From: Butyrivibrio sp. NC3005
Lineage (GTDB): Bacteria > Bacillota > Clostridia > Lachnospirales > Lachnospiraceae
Direction: 5' to 3'
Length of the DNA stretch: 64,000 bases
Assembly: GCF_000424545.1 (NCBI RefSeq)
Contig: NZ_AUKC01000007.1
Coordinates: forward strand, 62,001-126,000
Made by a program: the position numbers and the translations under genes. This document shows positions 2,057 through 21,849 of this stretch, piece after piece. The notes beneath the pieces are model-generated. The model did no database searches and had not been told where the DNA came from. It saw nothing but the letters and a program-made list of their open reading frames with translations. The number at the start of each line of letters is the position of its first letter. The stretch's first letter is position 1.

Positions 2057-4186
2057 ATGCGAATAACGAATAAGATTATGCACAATAATTCGATTTATAA
2101 CATTAATAATAACAAGGTTTCTGAAGATACTATCAATACTCAGATTGCTACAGGTAAGAAGATAAATAGGGCTTCGGATGATCCGGTTATAGCTATTCGT
2201 GCACTGAGACTTCGAAGTAATGTTAGTCAGCTTACTCAGTATAGTAAGAAAAATGCAGAAGATGCTGCTTCATGGCTTAAAGTTACAGAAGATGCACTTG
2301 GAACTGTTACAGATGTTCTTACTGCAATGATTTCGGAAGCAAATAAAGCAGCTAATACATATAAGGAACTTCCGGATTTTAAGACTATGATTACTGAGCT
2401 TGATGCTCTTTCAAGAGAGTATTACGCAACAGGTAATGAAGATTATGCAGGAAGATATATTTTTACAGGCTATAGGACAGGTAATCCACTAACATTTAAG
2501 GATGCAGCTACCCTTCAATATAAGAATATACATGATGAATTTAACGCTAGGGATGTTGATGTTTCTAAAAGGATAGTAAATGCTCATAAACTTGCTGCAG
2601 GTGATAGTGATGTTTTTATAGAAAGTGATATTGAGGATGTAGAGGTTGGAAGAGTAAGACTTTCTTATGAAGATCTTGCAGATACTGATACAGATTCGGT
2701 TCGAATTCAGTATAGAAAGCCATTGGCAGTTGATGCTACGGCTGAGCTTACCAAAGCAGATGTCAGCAAATCGTTACAGATTTCGTTTAAGGATTCTTCA
2801 GGAACTACACATAGAGTTAATCTCTCAACAGGAGACAGATATGATGAAATAGGTAACACTGTTACGGTAACTGAGTATGACGAGCAGGGCAATCCTACTG
2901 ATATAAAATACAATGCTCAGGTTGATACTGATGGAACTTTCAGAATTACAGGAAGTAATGATGGTGGTGCTACTAATATCTATGATCTTACAATAGATTC
3001 TGATGGAGTTATGAAAGCTCAAAATGGAACGGATGAAGTTAAAGATGTTGTTTGTAACATTTCTAAAACAGCGTTGTCAACAGTTACTTTCAAGACAGAT
3101 GCATCTGATCCTTATACTGTAACAATTAAAGTTCCTTTAACAGAAGCAAGTGATTCACCGTATACAGTTGAAATTCCAAGTACAAGATCAGATGGAAGCG
3201 CAGGCGATTTGTATACTATCACAGTTAATACTGACGGAACTTTCCATCTAGAATCACCTGTAACTGGATCAGGAAACGCGTCAGATCCGTTTATGACAAG
3301 TGTAGTCAATCTTTCGACAAATGGTAGTATAAACAGTTCATATATAGAGCATACATTAGTTCCAGATGGTGTAATAACTGTTGCAACTACAGAGGATGAA
3401 CTTGATAACATTTACAGAGAACTTGCAGATGGAACAAGTACTTGTTATTTAAATGCAGTTACAGGCGAAGTGCTTATGAACAATGAGTTGAAAACTACTT
3501 TGACGGCACTTACTGATGTTCATAATGCCAAAACAATCGATGTTGTGTACAGTAAAACAGCATGGAAATCAGGAGATACAAGACCTGAAAATCTCATGAA
3601 ATGCACTAATTGGGATGGAAAGGCGCCTGTGGTATTCAATGGTGGTATTTCAGATCATATTATGGAATATGATGTTGGATATGGCCAGACTATTGAAGTC
3701 AATACTACAGCAGACGAAGTATTTACTACAAATGTTGCAAGAGACGTTGAAGATTTGAAGCGTGTTATTAATAAGTTATCAGATGTGACAGCAGTTCTTG
3801 GAAATCTGAAGGCAGCAGTTGACAGTGCAACAAACGATACGGATAGAGAAAGTGCCCAGAAAGAATATGATGCTGCAGCAAAGGCTAAGGATTACCTTAT
3901 CAGGGATTTGAAAGATATGTGCGGCTCCAAGATTACTTCTTTCCAAAGAGCGCTTGATAAGGCAAATGTAGCGGTTTCTGAAAATGGAACCAGATCTAGC
4001 AGACTTGACATGATTTCAACAAGACTAACGAATCAACTTACAACATTTAAAGAGCTTCAGAGTAACAATGAAGATACCGATTTGGCAGAGGCAGCAACCG
4101 ATCTTAATATGGCAAAACTTCAGTATCAGGCTTCTTTAATGGCTACCGGAAAGATATTACAGAATTCACTTATGGATTACATTTGA
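2057..4186 (+). CDS. flgL: Flagellar hook-associated protein FlgL, enlarged
   Basis: FlgL (HAP3) is the second junction protein between hook and filament. The flagellin-like N-terminal helices (RITNKIMHNNSIYNINNNK, INRASDDPVIAIRALRLRS) and C-terminal helices (TDLAEAATDLNMAKLQYQAS) are clear. The protein is 709 residues against roughly 300-500 in most species. The excess is a Thr/Ser/Asp-rich beta-type insertion at about residues 200-540 with short internal repeats (YTVTIKVPL, YTVEIPSTR, YTITVNTDG), probably a surface-exposed domain. RBS AAAGAGG lies upstream. The operon continues to fliW only after a 579 bp gap filled with repeats R1 and R2. Confidence 0.87.
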   Translation: MRITNKIMHNNSIYNINNNKVSEDTINTQIATGKKINRASDDPVIAIRALRLRSNVSQLTQYSKKNAEDAASWLKVTEDALGTVTDVLTAMISEANKAANTYKELPDFKTMITELDALSREYYATGNEDYAGRYIFTGYRTGNPLTFKDAATLQYKNIHDEFNARDVDVSKRIVNAHKLAAGDSDVFIESDIEDVEVGRVRLSYEDLADTDTDSVRIQYRKPLAVDATAELTKADVSKSLQISFKDSSGTTHRVNLSTGDRYDEIGNTVTVTEYDEQGNPTDIKYNAQVDTDGTFRITGSNDGGATNIYDLTIDSDGVMKAQNGTDEVKDVVCNISKTALSTVTFKTDASDPYTVTIKVPLTEASDSPYTVEIPSTRSDGSAGDLYTITVNTDGTFHLESPVTGSGNASDPFMTSVVNLSTNGSINSSYIEHTLVPDGVITVATTEDELDNIYRELADGTSTCYLNAVTGEVLMNNELKTTLTALTDVHNAKTIDVVYSKTAWKSGDTRPENLMKCTNWDGKAPVVFNGGISDHIMEYDVGYGQTIEVNTTADEVFTTNVARDVEDLKRVINKLSDVTAVLGNLKAAVDSATNDTDRESAQKEYDAAAKAKDYLIRDLKDMCGSKITSFQRALDKANVAVSENGTRSSRLDMISTRLTNQLTTFKELQSNNEDTDLAEAATDLNMAKLQYQASLMATGKILQNSLMDYI

Positions 4187-4198
4187 TGCTAAAAAAAT

Positions 4199-4482
4199 AT
4201 AGGTTATTGTTTCTATATAGTCCGTTTTACTGTTTGTATATTTCGTCGCAGACACGCTTTCGCTTGATTATAAACGTAGTGGTACGTAATGCGCTAAAAA
4301 ACAGCGCATAAGTAAATGCGGCATAATTTAAACACTTTTAAATTATGTCGTCTGCCGTAGGCAGATTTAAAGGCATTATTTATGCCTTTAAACCCCAGAC
4401 CAACGTTTATAAACAGTTCTGCTCATGAAATATTACAAGCCAGCAAAACTCATCTATCATATGTTAAGAAACAATAACCTAT
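4199..4482 (+). repeat. R1 structured repeat, copy a (candidate ncRNA)
   Basis: A 284 bp non-coding element closed by a perfect 15 bp terminal stem (4199-4213 with 4468-4482). Nested stems inside pair GTTTTACTG with CAGCAAAAC (one mismatch here, none in copy b), TTGTATATTTC with GAAATATTACAA, GCAGA with TCTGC, and TTATAAACGT with ACGTTTATAA. An inner hairpin is GCGCT/AGCGC. Outside the terminal stem it is nearly identical to 9505-9705, apart from an 85 bp insertion (4314-4398) made of three hairpins (4322-4347, 4351-4365, 4366-4392). The two terminal-stem arms differ between copies by compensatory changes. It starts 12 bp after the flgL stop. No protein-coding potential was seen. Confidence 0.75.
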
Positions 4483-4606
4483 AGGTTATTGTTTTCATCA
4501 GGAAAATCAATAACCGTACTAGACCAAAATTTGTCGTTAAGACAAATTTTGTCCTGTGAAGCAGGATTCTTGCTGATGATTATCCTAAATCTCAGCAAGA
4601 AGTCAT
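4481..4606 (+). repeat. R2 structured repeat, copy a
   Basis: About 125 bp, matching the reverse complement of 21724-21849 at most positions. It begins with ATAGGTTATTGTTTTCATCAG and ends at CTCAGCAAGAAGTCAT. A hairpin with loop GTTAA has arm AAAATTTGTC here and AACATTTGTC in the other copy, with the opposite arm changed to match. A second hairpin keeps CCTG/CAGG while its loop varies. CTTGCTGA/TCAGCAAG forms a third stem. Its first bases are complementary to the last bases of R1a, giving a 26 bp palindrome at 4469-4494. No ORF. Bases 4607-4765 hold no further recognised element apart from the fliW start region. Confidence 0.7.
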
Positions 4607-4765
4607 AGATTATGGATTTTTGAGGTGTAGAATATGTGTTTTTTGCAAAAAAGAGTTTAAATTTTGTTGTTTTCTTATTATGAAAAAATAAAATTATTCC
4701 GACATATAAAATGATGGGAATTGGAATACTTAATCATTAAAATATGCGTCAAATGGAGGAACTAT

Positions 4766-5233
4766 ATGAAGCTTTTAACAAAAATATTTGGAGAGACTGA
4801 AATAAGTGATGACAAGATTTTAAGTTTTCCTAAGGGTATTATAGGTTTTCCAGATTTGAAGCGCTTTGCTCTTATGTATGACGAGGAAAAGGGAACACGG
4901 AATATCCAATGGCTTCAGTCTATAGATGAGCCGGCGTTTGCTATGCCGGTTATGGATCCTCTGCATGTTCGTGAAAACTATAGCCCCGAAGTTAACGATG
5001 ATGTATTGGAAGATATTAAACCGATTGATGAGAATAACACGTTAGTGCTGGTTACAGTTACAGTGCCTCATGATCTTACAAAAATGACTGTTAATCTCAA
5101 GGGACCATTCTTGATTAATGCTGATACAAGAGTCGGTGTTCAGGTTATTTTAGATAGTGATGAATATCAGGTAAAGTATCCTATATACGATATTTTGAAG
5201 AAGATGAAAGAGCAGAATACTGTAATGTCATAA
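4766..5233 (+). CDS. fliW: Flagellar assembly factor FliW
   Basis: FliW binds flagellin and CsrA; free FliW blocks CsrA from repressing flagellin translation. The protein shows the family core: KILSFPKGIIGFPDLKRFAL near the N-terminus, the acidic middle, LVTVTVPHDLTKMTVNLKGPFLINADTR, and a terminal KYPIYDIL segment; 155 residues is typical. The start is placed at the ATG preceded by GGAGG (4755-4759, 6 bp spacing). An in-frame ATG 45 bp upstream lacks a ribosome binding site and would add an atypical tail. The gene sits upstream of csrA as in many Firmicutes, but is separated from flgL by the R1/R2 repeats, so it may need its own promoter. Confidence 0.93.
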   Translation: MKLLTKIFGETEISDDKILSFPKGIIGFPDLKRFALMYDEEKGTRNIQWLQSIDEPAFAMPVMDPLHVRENYSPEVNDDVLEDIKPIDENNTLVLVTVTVPHDLTKMTVNLKGPFLINADTRVGVQVILDSDEYQVKYPIYDILKKMKEQNTVMS

Positions 5234-5321
5234 AAGTAATAACCCTCAGAATCCTGAATATCTTCAGTAATTAGCTGTCATGCAAATTCGTTATTGCAAG
5301 AATTGATAGACGGGCAAACGG

Positions 5322-5393
5322 TAATACGATTATGGATAAGTGCTATTAAATTTTGTGATTAATATTGCAATAATCGTATTAACGTGTTAATAT
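5322..5393 (+). promoter_or_regulatory. csrA promoter region with 12 bp inverted repeat
   Basis: TAATACGATTAT (5322-5333) and its exact reverse complement (5370-5381) are 36 bp apart. The right arm lies inside a candidate promoter, TTGCAA (5365-5370), 17 bp, TAATAT (5388-5393). A second small palindrome, TTAACGTGTTAA (5379-5390), overlaps the -10 side. Together this looks like an operator or a looped regulatory site in the 211 bp fliW-csrA gap. The promoter boxes are approximate matches. Confidence 0.4.
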
Positions 5394-5444
5394 AAAGCAT
5401 AACTGGGATATTCTCGGGAAAAGTTTTGTCACGGAGGGACGTCG

Positions 5445-5660
5445 ATGTTAGCATTATCAAGAAAGAAAAATGAAGCAATTATCATCAATAACAATATAGA
5501 AGTGACGGTGTTGGAGATTCGCGGAGATCAGGTAAAGCTTGGAATTGCTGCACCAAAAGAGATTCCGATTTATCGTCAAGAAGTTTATGCTCAGATTCAG
5601 GCAGAGAACAAGCAGGCAACAGATGTTGCGAACTTGGATGAATTGAATAAGCTGGCATAA
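5445..5660 (+). CDS. csrA: Carbon storage regulator CsrA
   Basis: 71 residues. It begins MLALSRKKNEAIIINNNIEV and continues with RGDQVKLGIAAPKEIPIYRQEVY, the two halves of the CsrA RNA-binding beta-dimer; the Leu4/Arg6 region and the conserved RxEVY are present. CsrA represses translation by binding GGA motifs in hairpin loops near ribosome binding sites, and in Firmicutes it is sequestered by FliW. The start follows GGAGG with good spacing. A Rho-independent terminator follows at 5683-5715. A plausible local target is the leader of the FliD-like gene at 8513-8561. Confidence 0.96.
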   Translation: MLALSRKKNEAIIINNNIEVTVLEIRGDQVKLGIAAPKEIPIYRQEVYAQIQAENKQATDVANLDELNKLA

Positions 5661-5682
5661 ACAGTATTTTGAATAGTTTTAG

Positions 5683-5715
5683 GACTGTTGCCTGAAATAG
5701 GGTGACAGTCTTTTT
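5683..5715 (+). terminator. Rho-independent terminator after csrA
   Basis: GACTGT (5683-5688) pairs with ACAGTC (5705-5710) and is followed by TTTTT. It closes the flagellar operon before glf. Confidence 0.75.
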
Positions 5716-5827
5716 GCGTAGCAAAGTAAGACTCTTATGATTTTAATGGGAGTGGTATGCCTAAAAATGTAAGTAGTTTCATAAATATTTTTTAAGCATT
5801 TTTTCAATGGATTGAGGGAGGAGTATT

Positions 5828-7072
5828 ATGAAGTATGATTATCTAGTTGTGGGAGCTGGTCTTTTTGGATGCGTTTTTGCACATGAAATGGCTAAGGCCG
5901 GCAAGAAATGTCTGGTAATAGATAAGAGAAACCAGATAGCAGGTAATATCTATACCAAAGATGAAAATGGAATTCAGGTACATGCTTATGGCGCGCACAT
6001 TTTCCATACATCTGATAGTGAAGTGTGGAGTTATGTGAAGAAGTTTGCTAAATTCAATCATTATGTAAATTCTCCAATGGCTGTTTATAAGGATGAGCTT
6101 TATAATCTTCCTTTTAACATGAACACATTTTCTAGAATGTGGGGAATAAGAACTCCTGAGGAAGCTCAGGCTATTATTGGACGTCAGAGTAGAGAAGCAG
6201 TTGTTGAAATTTTGAAAAAAAGAGGTGTTAGCAACCCTGCTGAATATGATATTCAGAATTTCAAGGCAGAGAATCTTGAAGAGCAGGGGTTATCTCTTGC
6301 TGGAAAAGATATTTTTGAAAAGCTTGTAAAAGGTTATACAGAGAAACAGTGGGGAAGACCATGCAGTGAACTTCCTGCATTTATCATTAAACGTCTGCCT
6401 TTCCGCTTTGTATATGATAATAACTATTTTAACGATCCTCATCAGGGAATTCCCAAGGGTGGATACACCGCTATGTGCGAGAGACTTCTTGGTCTTTTGA
6501 ATGACATGAGCAGCCAGATTTGTGGTATTCAGGCTTTTAGTAATATTACTGTTAAGCTTAACACAGATTATTTTACCTTCGTTGATCAGAAGCAGAAAAA
6601 GCCTGGAATGCCTTTCGTTTCTGTAGATGGCGATACTTTTGACAAGGTTGTTTATACAGGTATGATTGACGAGTTCTTTGGTTATAAGTATGGTATGTTA
6701 GAGTATCGTTCACTTTCCTTTGAAACTGAGTATCTTCCGGAAGTGGATAATTATCAGGGAAATGCTGTTGTCAACTATACAGAAAGAGAAGTTCCCTATA
6801 CTCGTATTATTGAGCACAAGCACTTTGAGTTTGGTAAGGGCAAAGGTACTATCATTACCAAGGAATATCCTGCTACATGGAAGAAGGGTGATGAACCTTA
6901 CTATCCAATGAATGATGAAAAGAACAATGCTTTATTTGAGAAGTACAAGGATATGTCCAAAGAATGGCCTCAGGTGATTTTTGGTGGACGTCTTGGTCAG
7001 TATAAGTATTTCAATATGGATCAGGTAGTAAGAAGCGCACTTGATGCTGCTAAAGCTGAGATTGGAAGATAA
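5828..7072 (+). CDS. glf: UDP-galactopyranose mutase
   Basis: Converts UDP-galactopyranose to UDP-galactofuranose in the cytosol, using reduced FAD. The N-terminal FAD-binding motif (VVGAGLFGCVFAHEMA, residues 7-22) is followed by the family signatures GNIYT, HAYGAHIFHT and YNLPFNMNTF, then EKQWGRP and FGGRLGQYKYFNMDQV near the C-terminus. At 414 residues it is slightly longer than most Glf proteins. The start is fixed by GGGAGGAG 8 bp upstream. It stands alone between two terminators. Its presence suggests that Galf occurs in one of the surface glycans made by the downstream loci. Confidence 0.95.
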   Translation: MKYDYLVVGAGLFGCVFAHEMAKAGKKCLVIDKRNQIAGNIYTKDENGIQVHAYGAHIFHTSDSEVWSYVKKFAKFNHYVNSPMAVYKDELYNLPFNMNTFSRMWGIRTPEEAQAIIGRQSREAVVEILKKRGVSNPAEYDIQNFKAENLEEQGLSLAGKDIFEKLVKGYTEKQWGRPCSELPAFIIKRLPFRFVYDNNYFNDPHQGIPKGGYTAMCERLLGLLNDMSSQICGIQAFSNITVKLNTDYFTFVDQKQKKPGMPFVSVDGDTFDKVVYTGMIDEFFGYKYGMLEYRSLSFETEYLPEVDNYQGNAVVNYTEREVPYTRIIEHKHFEFGKGKGTIITKEYPATWKKGDEPYYPMNDEKNNALFEKYKDMSKEWPQVIFGGRLGQYKYFNMDQVVRSALDAAKAEIGR

Positions 7073-7122
7073 GATTAGAAAAGCTCTAGATGTACTTATT
7101 AGAACAAGATTATAGAATAATG

Positions 7123-7156
7123 AAAAAGAGAGTTGCCGGTTGTGCAACTCTCTTTT
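7123..7156. terminator. Bidirectional terminator between glf and the FliD-like gene
   Basis: AAAAGAGAGTTGC and GCAACTCTCTTTT form a 13 bp stem with A and T tracts on both sides, so it can stop transcripts from both directions. The TAA stop codon of the minus-strand gene (7155-7157) lies in the base of this hairpin. Confidence 0.85.
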
Positions 7157-8456
7157 AGCAGTAATAATTAAACATCATTCCAGAATACTCACTTGTTATA
7201 TATGGGGTTATTGTACCATGCCCTGGATTTTTATAATTTACAATAGGTCTGTTGGTGTATTTCATAGGGTCAAGCATTATTTCTGTAGTGTAGTTCTTTA
7301 ATACATTGGTGAAATCTCGAAGAGGTTTTAGTGTTTCTTTCGGATCACTGGAATCTGAGATGAATTCACTCATAACCGCTTTCTCGATGTTCATTTTGCC
7401 TTTTTCATTCATAGTGAGGCCTAATTTATTCAAAGGTTCTTTTTCTAAAACGAAGTTGGCATTCAAACCTGAAATAATCTTAGAACAGTCTACTTTTCCC
7501 TTTGAATTTGTTGTCAGATTCTCTAAATTATCAACAAAATCGTTATAGTTATCTTTTAACTTTTCACTATTCTTTATTATAGTATTGTGATCAGATTTTA
7601 ATCCTATTGTAATTGGGGGGCCTTCAGTTTCTTTTTTTAGTTCTACTTCGAATACATTGCCGAGTGTAAAATGATTAGTTGGACTATTATGTTCTGATCC
7701 ATTAACTATGAATATGGCATTTGAAGGAGCCTGACTTACATTATCTAGTCCGAAATGCGGGACGATTCCGTGTCTTGGACTATTAAGTGAATCATGAATA
7801 TCAAACCTAAGGAGCTGTCCATTTTCAGGATTGCCTGTTGCATTGGAGCTAATCTCTATTGCACAGTTGTTGTCTTCGTCTGTCAGGACATTAGCCGATA
7901 GTGAAACATTTGCCTTGTTTATTAATCTTGCTATTCTTTCTACCATTGTAGAGTTTGTATCCTGATTGTTAATGGAAAACTGAAATTCAAAATTGTTGTT
8001 TTCTATGCGCGCATTAAAGTAGTAACTCCCTTCCTGAATATCAAGCGAGTCACTAGGTAGGAACTTTCCAGTGTTTATTTGCGGCAATGCTAATTTCTTA
8101 ATTTCGAGAGATAAGTCTGGAACATCATCCTTGTTATTACCGATATATGTGACATTTATTGCTTCTTCATCAGATGCAATAGCTACTTTCTGACAGAATC
8201 CATCTGTTTCTTCATTTTCAAGCATACATAGACTGTTGCGGAATTTTCTTGTATGTTCTTTTAGTGCTACAGCACTTTCTTCAATGTCACAATCCCGTTT
8301 TAGAAGATAAAGAGGTGCATCTTTGTTGATTCGCACTATGGACTTATAAATATCACGAAGTTCGTTTCGTTTATGTGTATCAGATTTGCTTGTATCTGGT
8401 GACGCATAAGTCGTCAAAAAGTGGTTATAAACACCACTCATGATTATATTTGCCAT
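7155..8456 (-). CDS. FliD-like flagellar cap/hook-associated protein
   Basis: 433 residues. The C-terminal half resembles the FliD (HAP2) C-domain: a FIVNGSEHNSP turn, TLGNVFEVELKKE, TIGLKSDHNTII, then helical KLKDNYNDFVDNLENLTT (the usual fV..YN.l segment) and LGLTMNEKGKMNIE. The N-terminus (VYNHFLTTYASPDTSKSDTHKR) is not a standard FliD N-domain, so it is either a divergent lineage-specific cap or an export-linked relative. The start is chosen at the ATG preceded by GGAGG (8464-8468, 7 bp); an upstream in-frame ATG at 8507 would place the RBS inside the gene. The leader carries hairpins described separately. The stop codon is inside the terminator. Confidence 0.7.
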   Translation of the reverse strand: MANIIMSGVYNHFLTTYASPDTSKSDTHKRNELRDIYKSIVRINKDAPLYLLKRDCDIEESAVALKEHTRKFRNSLCMLENEETDGFCQKVAIASDEEAINVTYIGNNKDDVPDLSLEIKKLALPQINTGKFLPSDSLDIQEGSYYFNARIENNNFEFQFSINNQDTNSTMVERIARLINKANVSLSANVLTDEDNNCAIEISSNATGNPENGQLLRFDIHDSLNSPRHGIVPHFGLDNVSQAPSNAIFIVNGSEHNSPTNHFTLGNVFEVELKKETEGPPITIGLKSDHNTIIKNSEKLKDNYNDFVDNLENLTTNSKGKVDCSKIISGLNANFVLEKEPLNKLGLTMNEKGKMNIEKAVMSEFISDSSDPKETLKPLRDFTNVLKNYTTEIMLDPMKYTNRPIVNYKNPGHGTITPYITSEYSGMMFNYYC

Positions 8457-8512
8457 GACGTGCCCTCCTTTCTTCCTTGATAAACAGATCGGATTATATT
8501 GAATCATAACCC

Positions 8513-8561
8513 GTGGAGAAGTAGTTACTTATCCACATCCGCACTACGCATCCTTGCGTAG
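8513..8561 (-). promoter_or_regulatory. Structured leader with CsrA-type binding hairpin
   Basis: On the minus-strand RNA, CUACGCA-AGGA-UGCGUAG forms a 7 bp hairpin with AGGA in the loop (8544-8561). The core CAAGGAUG matches the CsrA consensus (ACARGGAUGU) in a loop context. A second hairpin, GUGGA-U-AAGUA-AC-UACUU-C-UCCAC, follows at 8513-8536, and the SD itself (8464-8468) supplies another GGA. Upstream, GCCGATGC (8573-8580, minus strand) resembles a sigma-28 -10 element, though no good -35 was found. If it is real, the hairpin would lie at the very 5' end of the transcript. Confidence 0.6.
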
Positions 8562-8664
8562 ACTACTGTTGGGCATCGGCAATCGATATTATCTTGAAAA
8601 TATATTATCACATTAACGATATAATATCAATGTTTTTAGTAAAAATATGATAATTAAAAAACAA

Positions 8665-8695
8665 TAAAAAAGGATACCGCCATAAAGCGATACCC
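8665..8695 (-). terminator. Terminator of the phosphoribosyltransferase gene
   Basis: Read on the minus strand, GGGTATCGC and GCGGTATCC form a stem with a short TTTAT-type loop, followed by TTTTTT. It lies 19 bp past the stop at 8714. Confidence 0.85.
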
Positions 8696-8713
8696 TTAAG
8701 TAGTTTGATAAAA

Positions 8714-9355
8714 TTAACCAATTTCAGAATAGCCAAAACCATTACAGATAGCATCAACTTTTGCGCCTTCCTGACAAAGCTTACAGTTGTCATGACTATA
8801 GGAAGCATAATCAGGAATATCTGCCTTGGAATATAGGCTGTGAATATCATATCCGGCAACTTTGTTTCCTGCTGAAAATATTGCAGAAACACCTGAAATG
8901 AAACCACCATAGTACTTGATTCCATCTATTGCTCTGGAAACAGTTTTACCTGTAGTCATGGAAGCAAGAAGGAGAAGTACGTTCTTTTTGTCCAGCATCA
9001 TTTTCATATTGTCTCTGAATATCATCTGTCCAAGTTGATCATATTCAGGGGTAACTACGTAAATTGTTTTGTGCTGGTTCATGGACATAACACCTGCTTT
9101 GGTAAGTTCATCAGCCAAATATGCACCTATAACTTCAGTTCCATCCATGCAGATAATAGTATCTACAATTGTAGTAGCAACATAATCATGTGCAAGTGCG
9201 TGCGCAACAGCTCTTGCTTCGCTTTGACGAGTTTTCATTGTCGTCATATCGATATAATAATTGATATGTGAATTTGGTGTTACGAAATGTCCTTTGATAA
9301 CTTTGAGAGTGATGTCTGGATGCGTCTTCGAAATAATCTTTGTGTAATTCAACAT
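8714..9355 (-). CDS. Phosphoribosyltransferase-family protein (orotate PRTase-like)
   Basis: 213 residues with a type I phosphoribosyltransferase layout. A central beta-alpha fold with TIICMDGTEVIGAYLADELTK is followed by the PRPP-loop region VLLLLASMTTGKTVSRAID and then YYGGFISGVSAIFSAG. The TTGKT phosphate loop is kept, but the acidic pair usually just before it (D-D or E-D) is replaced by A-S. Catalysis may therefore be altered, or the protein may bind a nucleotide as a sensor. The C-terminus has a CxxC (NCKLCQEG). It is transcribed alone from a candidate promoter at 9423-9451 and ends at a terminator. It could be an orotate or purine PRTase relative; the substrate is unknown. Confidence 0.65.
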   Translation of the reverse strand: MLNYTKIISKTHPDITLKVIKGHFVTPNSHINYYIDMTTMKTRQSEARAVAHALAHDYVATTIVDTIICMDGTEVIGAYLADELTKAGVMSMNQHKTIYVVTPEYDQLGQMIFRDNMKMMLDKKNVLLLLASMTTGKTVSRAIDGIKYYGGFISGVSAIFSAGNKVAGYDIHSLYSKADIPDYASYSHDNCKLCQEGAKVDAICNGFGYSEIG

Positions 9356-9422
9356 TTTATTTGTCTCCTATTCTGGAAATAAAATTGTTGCCACCGTTAA
9401 TGCAAAAACAAACAGTTATAAT

Positions 9423-9451
9423 AATATATTAACTCATTAACGCTTTTACAA
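9423..9451 (-). promoter_or_regulatory. Sigma-A-type promoter for the phosphoribosyltransferase gene
   Basis: On the minus strand: TTGTAA (9446-9451), 17 bp spacer, TATATT (9423-9428), about 67 bp before the ATG at 9355. Confidence 0.55.
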
Positions 9452-9504
9452 CAATATTTTTTTGAAAAATAGGGTATACTAAATGTAGAGAAAGTGGCAA
9501 AAAC

Positions 9505-9705
9505 TATACTTTATTGTTTCTATAATAGTCCGTTTTACTGTTTGTATATTTCGTCGCAGACACGCTTTCGCTTGATTATAAACGTAGTGGTACGTAATGC
9601 GCTAAAAAACAGCGCACAAGTACCAACGTTTATAAACAGTTCTGCTCATGAAATATTACAAGCCAGTAAAACTAATCTACTAAGTATTCAAAACAATAAA
9701 GTATA
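9505..9705 (+). repeat. R1 structured repeat, copy b (candidate ncRNA)
   Basis: 201 bp, the compact form of the element at 4199-4482. The terminal stem pairs TATACTTTATTGTTT (9505-9519) with AAACAATAAAGTATA (9691-9705). Relative to copy a, GG on the left arm became CT and CC on the right arm became AG, so pairing is kept by double changes. The interior is almost identical to copy a but lacks the three-hairpin insertion. GTTTTACTG/CAGTAAAAC is a perfect stem here. A TATACT box at 9475-9480 lies about 25 bp upstream and could be the -10 of its own promoter, although no good -35 was seen. Confidence 0.75.
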
Positions 9706-9727
9706 ACTTTTTTGTCAACTTCATTCA

Positions 9728-9815
9728 GAAACTCGCATTTACTGCGAGTTTCGTGAGAACAAAAGTCAAGTGGCAAACTGGTCCAAGGCGACGCCTTTTT
9801 TAATGGCCAGTTTGC
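9728..9815 (+). terminator. Hairpin cluster with nested terminator after R1b
   Basis: GAAACTCGC/GCGAGTTTC (9728-9752) is a 9 bp hairpin. GCAAACTGGTCC pairs with GGCCAGTTTGC (9773-9815) around an inner AAGGC-GAC-GCCTT stem followed by TTTTTTAA (9785-9802), which by itself looks like a Rho-independent terminator. This may end an R1b transcript before the next gene. The gap 9356-9876 is therefore filled by promoter, R1b, these hairpins and R3a. Confidence 0.5.
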
Positions 9816-9846
9816 GTAGTTTTTGGAACGCAGTGACAAAAATCTA
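9813..9846 (+). repeat. R3 short repeat, copy a
   Basis: A 34 bp block starting TGCGTAGTTTTTGGAA and ending AAAAATCTA, matching 16366-16399 at about 26 of 34 positions with equal length. TTTTTG/CAAAAA can pair. Both copies sit 25-35 bp upstream of a start codon. Confidence 0.4.
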
Positions 9847-9876
9847 TAGTTTTTGATGAATAATGTGGAGGAAAAA

Positions 9877-21723: not shown

Positions 21724-21849
21724 ATGACTTCTGCTGAGATTTAGGATAATCATCAGCAAGAATCCTGATTTGCAGGACAACATTTGTCTTAACGACAAAT
21801 GTTGGTCTGGTACAGTTTTGGATTTTACTGATGAAAACAATAACCTATT
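21724..21849 (-). repeat. R2 structured repeat, copy b
   Basis: Reverse-strand copy of 4481-4606, with the same ends. The GTTAA-loop hairpin has arms AACATTTGTC/GACAAATGTT, which change in concert relative to copy a. CCTG/CAGG is conserved around a different loop, and TCTTGCTGA/TCAGCAGA is kept. It begins 5 bp after the flippase stop and no R1 copy adjoins it, so R2 is an independent element. Confidence 0.7.

Follow-up and report, generated by a model that had tools for sequence, protein, structure and literature searches.

Two copies of a folded repeat in the window

Two copies of a non-coding repeat lie in the stretch of 64,000 nucleotides of Butyrivibrio sp. NC3005 analysed here (contig NZ_AUKC01000007.1, positions 62,001 to 126,000, henceforth the window). 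Their terminal stems differ in sequence and are nevertheless paired within each copy, which raises the question of whether such pairing is kept by selection on an RNA or by a process acting on DNA. The two copies are real and nearly identical in their interiors (99% identity over 98 nt and 97% over 58 nt), as the earlier note had described. Each carries a single variant at both of its ends (TATAGGTTATTGTTT in copy a, TATACTTTATTGTTT in copy b), so both arms have changed together. Their fold z-scores are far from chance (copy b −9.2 as DNA and −11.0 as RNA, copy a −12.2 as DNA) and no open reading frame of at least 80 aa was found inside either copy. Copy a lies between two genes that we take, from their translations, to be flgL-like (2057-4186) and fliW-like (4721-5233). 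It also has an extra 86-nt block, absent from the earlier note, that interrupts its head, so that the true head extends rightward beyond the model match, to ~4429 as read from the alignment. The same block was present in five other fetched loci of this genome (four distinct places).

Table 1. Coordinates of the two copies, their parts and the adjoining repeat modules within the window.
Feature	Position	Strand	Remarks
Copy a, element (arms + head)	4198..4483	(-)	ends TATAGGTTATTGTTT; head strand opposite to both flanking genes
Copy a, left terminal repeat	4198..4214	(+)	
Copy a, head as matched by model	4250..4342	(-)	41.3 bits
Copy a, extra block within P4	4315..4400	.	86 nt; three hairpins
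Copy a, right terminal repeat	4467..4483	(-)	
Repeat module M2	4480..4607	.	abuts copy a; TATA junction 4480-4483 in common
Copy b, element	9505..9705	(-)	ends TATACTTTATTGTTT
Copy b, head (P2, P3, P4, P5 three-way junction)	9558..9646	(-)	covariance-model match 1-88/88, 91.1 bits
Repeat module M3	9702..9848	.	abuts copy b; TATA junction 9702-9705 in common

A search of the whole window against 4227 Rfam families gave no match at the gathering score and nothing convincing for the element at a lax threshold, and 20 related loci were likewise without an Rfam match, in line with the view that the repeat belongs to no named class. Literature searches turned up no description of such an element; the supplements of PMC8040213 (3161 candidate motifs) and PMC12306157 may list the motif.

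A repeat family of the Lachnospiraceae

We described the core of the element, on the minus strand in the window, by a covariance model of 88 positions comprising a three-way junction and a GNRA mini-hairpin (the head). All 56 candidates scored in the window's genome matched the model, and 47 distinct places were listed. The elements are short (about 200–290 bp), non-coding and present in many copies. Several copies sit at contig ends, so the family may break assemblies. Within the genus the head was found in 55 of 79 genomes, and within the order in 63 of 392 genomes and 33 of 174 genera; all but one of these 63 genomes belong to a single family of gut and rumen bacteria, the Lachnospiraceae. 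We rejected a phage origin, as viral contigs yielded just two matches to one exact pattern.

Covariation and wobble pairing

The conserved fold with compensatory change that had been claimed from the two copies extends to the whole family: 30 of the 31 model pairs show double changes, and 94.6% are paired compared to 70.1% after shuffling. The arms of a copy pair with each other in 70 of 86 cases, against 3 of 86 when each is given a foreign arm. At the tips, both ends were readable in 28 of the 50 copies examined in the window's genome, and 16 of these had the same variant on both sides (mean 6.0 and maximum 14 in 2000 shuffles). Since the variants differ in the other 12, the end covariation is real but not strict. 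Besides its helices the head has conserved unpaired positions and a 2-nt bulge, and P5 is mostly a GC-GNNA-GC mini-hairpin whose loop conforms to GNRA in 183 of 197 rows and is never GNYA.

These features could belong to a structured RNA, that is, to head-strand transcripts (small RNAs or cis-regulatory RNAs) under selection as RNA. The covariation, the GNRA tetraloop, the conserved unpaired positions with the bulge and the RNA z-score all speak for it, as does the RNAalifold energy, which is better for the head strand than for its complement (−38.1 vs −32.8). We consider this reading unlikely, in part on the grounds of wobble pairing. In P3 and P4 taken together, G.U was not above A.C (44 vs 54, from two model-fitted alignments), nor was it in the arms (261 vs 283) or, after a realignment that ignored structure, in 187 heads (66 vs 81). 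The yardstick on which we relied, SRP RNA at strand-neutral pairs, gave 65 vs 18 with all 30 loci. Strand-neutral pairs of 29 heads gave 13 vs 8, or 17 vs 13 on a longer alignment. On the side of an RNA, there is a G.U excess in P2 (52 vs 24 in total; 25 vs 17 and 27 vs 7) and in P5 (93 vs 4 in total; 50 vs 1 and 43 vs 3), the latter coming mostly from one pair whose 3' base is an almost invariant T. The pairs picked by RNAalifold in the heads gave 42 vs 9.

Two further yardsticks were of less use. For SRP RNA, the procedure used for the arms covered 21 of 30 loci and gave 46 vs 21, a weak comparison in which three loci contribute 28 vs 6 and the rest 18 vs 15, and in which five loci were aligned over just 3 pairs. 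The TPP riboswitch was dropped because placement succeeded for just 17 of 30 loci and the outcome varied with the method (6 vs 4 at strand-neutral pairs, 26 vs 0 with RNAalifold). Given that G.U does not exceed A.C in the 187 heads or in the arms, unlike in SRP RNA, the pairing looks as if it is kept at the DNA level and not as an RNA gene. DNA mini-hairpins of the GNA and GNNA type, the form that P5 mostly has, are extraordinarily stable and resist nucleases when they contain two or more G-C pairs (PMC4686876). The loop itself counts against a DNA reading, as DNA mini-hairpins would allow any base at the position of the R, where a Y never occurs.

Genomic context

The copies are intergenic and their strand relative to both neighbouring genes is random (52/46/30/28 of 156), nor was there any promoter enrichment 5' of the arms in 147 copies (mean 7.32 vs 7.28 when shuffled). 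An independent small-RNA gene was rejected on the missing promoter signal, and a cis-regulatory leader on the random strand and position of the 156 copies, though several of them sit immediately upstream of a start codon. The head shares a three-way junction, a GNRA loop and strong covariation with the structured RNAs of Rfam, but differs from them in having no match, no wobble excess in its main helices, no promoter and no fixed orientation. Of the earlier proposal of selection on an RNA or a cruciform, the RNA part was not supported and the cruciform comes closer.

Folded DNA might also serve the host, for instance as a binding site for nucleoid or supercoiling proteins that would retain copies after insertion; for BIMEs, a host function as protein-binding folded DNA has been proposed. 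Consistent with this, at a locus shared by three closely related genomes (L070, L072 and L073) the copies keep their arms paired though several bases differ (27/27 arm pairs are Watson-Crick in L070, 36/36 in L073), and in 103 of 156 copies a gene lies closer on the 3' side of the head than on the other. We nonetheless regard a host function as improbable: 24 of the 79 genomes of the genus have no match, no gene class was associated with the copies among the commonest 25 of 134 Pfam families nearby, and template switching (see below) accounts for paired arms without selection.

Ends, border duplications and mobility

According to the earlier note, a MITE would keep its end sequence, so the element could not be one. 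Two findings speak against this argument. In the window's genome the ends share the skeleton TATANNTTNTTGT, fixed at most positions, as terminal inverted repeats. In four other genera the head lies at the centre of elements of 200–290 bp with terminal inverted repeats TAGGYRWTTGCGAAAC; direct repeats border 21 of 32 such elements, against 13 of 623 re-paired flanks used as control. The core of these 32 was recognised by model or by pattern, weakly in L119, L120, L126 and L129. The border duplications measure ~9–15 bp, which points to a DDE enzyme. No target-site duplication was found for the subfamily to which the window's copies belong; its shared TATA/CATA junction would fit one of 4 bp.

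Elements of the window's genome tile in mosaics with other repeat modules. Of 72 ends, 38 abut the end of another module with a common 4-nt junction, against 13 of 3144 YATR sites. Close copies of the element are mainly divergent (10 divergent, 0 convergent, 3 tandem), a trait resembling REP units, which are often close together and in opposite orientation (PMC3733652). With its strand-specific conserved fold, variable arms and intergenic mosaics, the element could be REP/BIME-like or attC-like, with a Y1 (RAYT) transposase or a recombinase reading the folded head and moving the element in the form of single-stranded DNA. Several observations make this very doubtful. REPs are defined as palindromes of 20–40 bp with a GTAG/CGTC tag at one end (PMC3733652), while the element is about 200 bp long with YATR ends. 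The Y1_Tnp domain does not track the head among the 79 genomes of the genus, where it occurs in 40 of 55 carriers and 20 of 24 non-carriers (some of the 15 carriers without a Y1 match are incomplete genomes, and the profile, PF01797, also catches plain IS200-type transposases); mobilisation by RAYT/Y1 was rejected for this reason. Insertion on the lagging strand was rejected too: the copies of one near-complete genome showed no clear preference for a replication strand (20 vs 13 of 33), in a weak test counted by hand with the skew sampled every 120 kb. Finally, the border duplications of the other genera point elsewhere.

No autonomous partner of the TATANNTTNTTGT ends was identified in 30 loci scanned for end positions only. 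An autonomous element adjoining a copy was rejected: among 106 nearby ORFs (100–480 aa) no Pfam family had more than two matches, and no transposase figured in the commonest 25 of 134 families near copies. The window's genome does contain a 1.3-kb IS-like stretch (L113) bounded by AGGCGTTTGCGAAAC and AGGTAATTGCGAAAC, ends of the TAGGYRWTTGCGAAAC type, with a degenerate DDE_Tnp_1 frame (E 4e-05); no core was found in it (E up to 0.1).

A probable MITE-like origin and its implications

We infer that copies a and b are probably non-autonomous, MITE-like inverted-repeat elements of a family found throughout the Lachnospiraceae, with arms that are complementary at the DNA level. Like MITEs of DDE transposons they are short, free of ORFs, intergenic and numerous, with terminal inverted repeats and, in four genera, border duplications. 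Unlike MITEs they have a conserved folded core, common to elements with unrelated terminal repeats, and arms that covary instead of staying fixed; the partner of the window's subfamily was not found. What stands of the earlier interpretation is thus the fold, the compensatory change and the lack of an Rfam class, and not the argument against a MITE or for selection on RNA.

Each element would consist of long complementary arms with a lineage-specific terminal repeat at the tips and the 88-nt folded core between them, and DDE transposases would act in trans on its terminal repeats to move it. The arms may be kept complementary by a process at the DNA level, most simply by hairpin-templated template switching at replication, in which one arm would be recopied from the other, producing double changes without G.U intermediates; template switching is described as giving compensatory changes in a single step (PMC8794818). 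The core might, with some uncertainty, be kept as folded single-stranded DNA that caps or marks the palindrome.

A transposase alone does not account for the core, which recurs in elements whose terminal repeats are unrelated. We tentatively suggest, with considerable doubt, that one folded DNA domain (the three-way junction with its GNRA/GNNA mini-hairpin) is a portable core carried family-wide in the palindromes of different transposon lineages. There it would provide a DNA signal specific to one strand, or else a cap resistant to nucleases that lets the palindromes survive, independently of the transposase.

A strong covariation signal is usually read as proving a functional RNA; here it is seen in mobile DNA repeats whose main helices lack the wobble signature of RNA. 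This makes the choice between selection on RNA and template switching of DNA a question that can be tested on hundreds of copies, and it offers a repeat family for the annotation of Lachnospiraceae genomes.

The element in the window's genome

Pairwise comparison of the window's two copies, a and b, showed interiors of almost the same sequence between ends that differ from each other, as the earlier note had described, and its observation on the element as a whole stands. Compared with shuffled sequences, their folds gave z scores of -12.2 for copy a as DNA, and of -9.2 as DNA and -11.0 as RNA for copy b. No Rfam family reached its gathering score, and lower scores brought nothing convincing. 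Copy a carries an extra block of 86 nt with three hairpins (4315-4400), nested in helix P4 of the core described below; since this block recurs in five other fetched loci of the genome, amounting to four distinct places, it travels with a subfamily.

In the same genome, BLAST found at least 41 matches (40 of 144 candidates scored) and a covariance model at least 56 (all 56 scored candidates), corresponding to at least 47 distinct places among the matches listed. Fifty copies were examined, and 16 of the 28 with both ends readable had matching end variants left and right, as against a mean of 6.0 and a maximum of 14 in 2000 shuffles. The end skeleton TATANNTTNTTGT is kept among these copies, with variation at three positions. 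They lie in mosaics with two repeat modules, M2 and M3, sharing a four-base YATR junction: 38 of 72 copy ends adjoin such a module end (strict pattern), versus 13 of the 3144 YATR sites in the window. A direct M3-TATA-M2 junction lacking the element is present elsewhere (locus L425) and has the look expected of an empty site. The 16-mer at one end of M3 occurs 112 times in the genome at no more than one mismatch, and its reversed control not once.

Repeat elements, modules and related loci. L### are fetched loci; G000 is the window's genome and C20 one of its contigs.
Feature	Position	Size and structure	Remark
Copy a	4198-4483		repeat element
Copy b	9505-9705		repeat element
Module M2	4480-4607	~128 nt, three hairpins	second interspersed repeat family of the genome
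Module M2, further copy	21724-21848		91% identical
Module M3	9702-9848	~147 nt	one end TATAGATTTTTGTCAC
Degenerate DDE transposase stretch	L113:1500-2811 (G000:C20)		
Loci with two divergent heads within 700 bp	L207, L187, L204, L181, L244, L095, L103, L098, L100, L110		

A conserved folded head

Divergent homologues were found in nine further genomes among 60 relatives (73-85% identity over the matched part), with arms that are unrelated in sequence and yet pair. The model of the conserved core (the head, 88 nt), built from 29 sequences, comprises P2, P3 (extended by P4, with a bulge of 2 nt) and the mini-hairpin P5. At that stage 23 of the 31 pairs presented double changes; an alignment of 106 distinct rows has them in 30 of 31, with 94.6% of cells paired versus 70.1% when shuffled, although it was fitted to the model and hence is biased towards the structure. 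Alignment A1 was made without the structure, though the structure was then drawn on it.

Within the genus Butyrivibrio the model matched at least 55 of 79 genomes, and within the order at least 63 of 392 (33 of 174 genera), counts that are lower bounds because filters were strict and few candidates were scored per genome; 62 of the 63 belong to the Lachnospiraceae. A pattern scan of named genomes recovered at least 120 loci, the 80 among those listed being mostly labelled Lachnospiraceae or its genera, and the remainder Clostridia, Clostridiales, Clostridium or Clostridiaceae, apart from four MAG contigs (two Gastranaerophilales, one Muribaculum, one Bacteroides). Two viral contigs match as well. 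At one locus (L104:1586-1700) the head is followed by tandem repeats containing the P5 mini-hairpin.

Pairing in RNA or in DNA

Selection on an RNA helix should accept G.U far more than A.C. The main helices give no support to the RNA preferred in the earlier note, G.U not standing above A.C in P3 and P4 overall (21 v 36 in one alignment, 23 v 18 in a second). Neither the arms (124 v 162 in 92 copies, 137 v 121 in 70, aligned by Watson-Crick pairs only) nor 187 heads realigned without structure, with a strand-neutral choice of pairs (66 v 81), showed the excess seen in 30 SRP RNAs when their pairs were chosen in that strand-neutral way (65 v 18). The exceptions are P2 (25 v 17 in one alignment, 27 v 7 in the other) and P5 (50 v 1 and 43 v 3, mostly one pair with a near-invariant 3' base). 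Read on the head strand, 101 of 106 and 82 of 91 distinct rows have a GNRA loop at P5 (GAAA, GAGA, GCAA, GCGA, GGAA or GGGA, never GUNA or GNYA), a rule that fixes the strand and looks RNA-like; this rule, P2 and P5 count against pairing at the DNA level. Position 2 of 183 GNRA loops is A, C or G and never U, which is odd for RNA. RNAalifold, as a further exception, preferred the head strand.

Pairing maintained at the DNA level is nevertheless favoured, given the lack of a G.U excess in P3 and P4, arms and realigned heads. The same reading is favoured by the lack of promoter-signal enrichment 5' of the arms and by the random strand of the head with respect to its two neighbouring genes (156 copies, crude ORF calls, 25 copies overlapping an ORF). 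Furthermore, P5 read as DNA is mostly of the GC-GNNA-GC form, a mini-hairpin reported to be extraordinarily stable and to resist nucleases (PMC4686876), and template switching is described as able, in a single step, to create perfect stems and compensatory changes of several bases (PMC8794818).

Mobility and genomic setting

In four other genera the head is central in elements of 201-288 bp with the terminal repeat TAGGYRWTTGCGAAAC, and direct repeats of ~9-15 bp border 21 of 32 of these, versus 13 of 623 randomly paired flanks. From these elements, the family is mobile, and the earlier note's exclusion of a transposon fails. Terminal repeats differ in other genomes, e.g. GTTACAATTCAG in G096 (by eye), and the window's own subfamily yielded no partner and, apart from TATA, no duplication. 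The window's genome contains a degenerate 1.3-kb stretch, presumably IS1182-like, with a DDE_Tnp_1 frame (E 4e-05), ends like those of the TAGGYRWTTGCGAAAC-type elements and no head. These ends match the type on head-bearing elements of other genera; the window's own copies use different ones. A link to Y1 transposases was rejected, as their presence is unrelated to that of the head (matches in 40 of 55 carriers and in 20 of 24 non-carriers).

No Pfam family had more than two matches among nearby genes (n=106). The closer gene was on the 3' side of the head in 103 of 156 copies, related copies included. Orientation with respect to replication was 20 v 13 in one near-complete genome, hand-assigned with skew sampled every 120 kb. 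Head pairs less than 700 bp apart in the loci in hand (n=13, some apparently orthologous) were divergent in ten cases, tandem in three and never convergent; two more divergent pairs lie beyond these. The 2.45-Mb contig G349:C1 (L402-L421) has three sign changes of GC skew, suggesting a large inversion or misassembly.

Literature searches aimed at such an element found no description. The element is real and family-wide, of the MITE kind, set apart by its conserved folded core. We propose that the head may act as a cap or signal, maintained across elements with unrelated ends.
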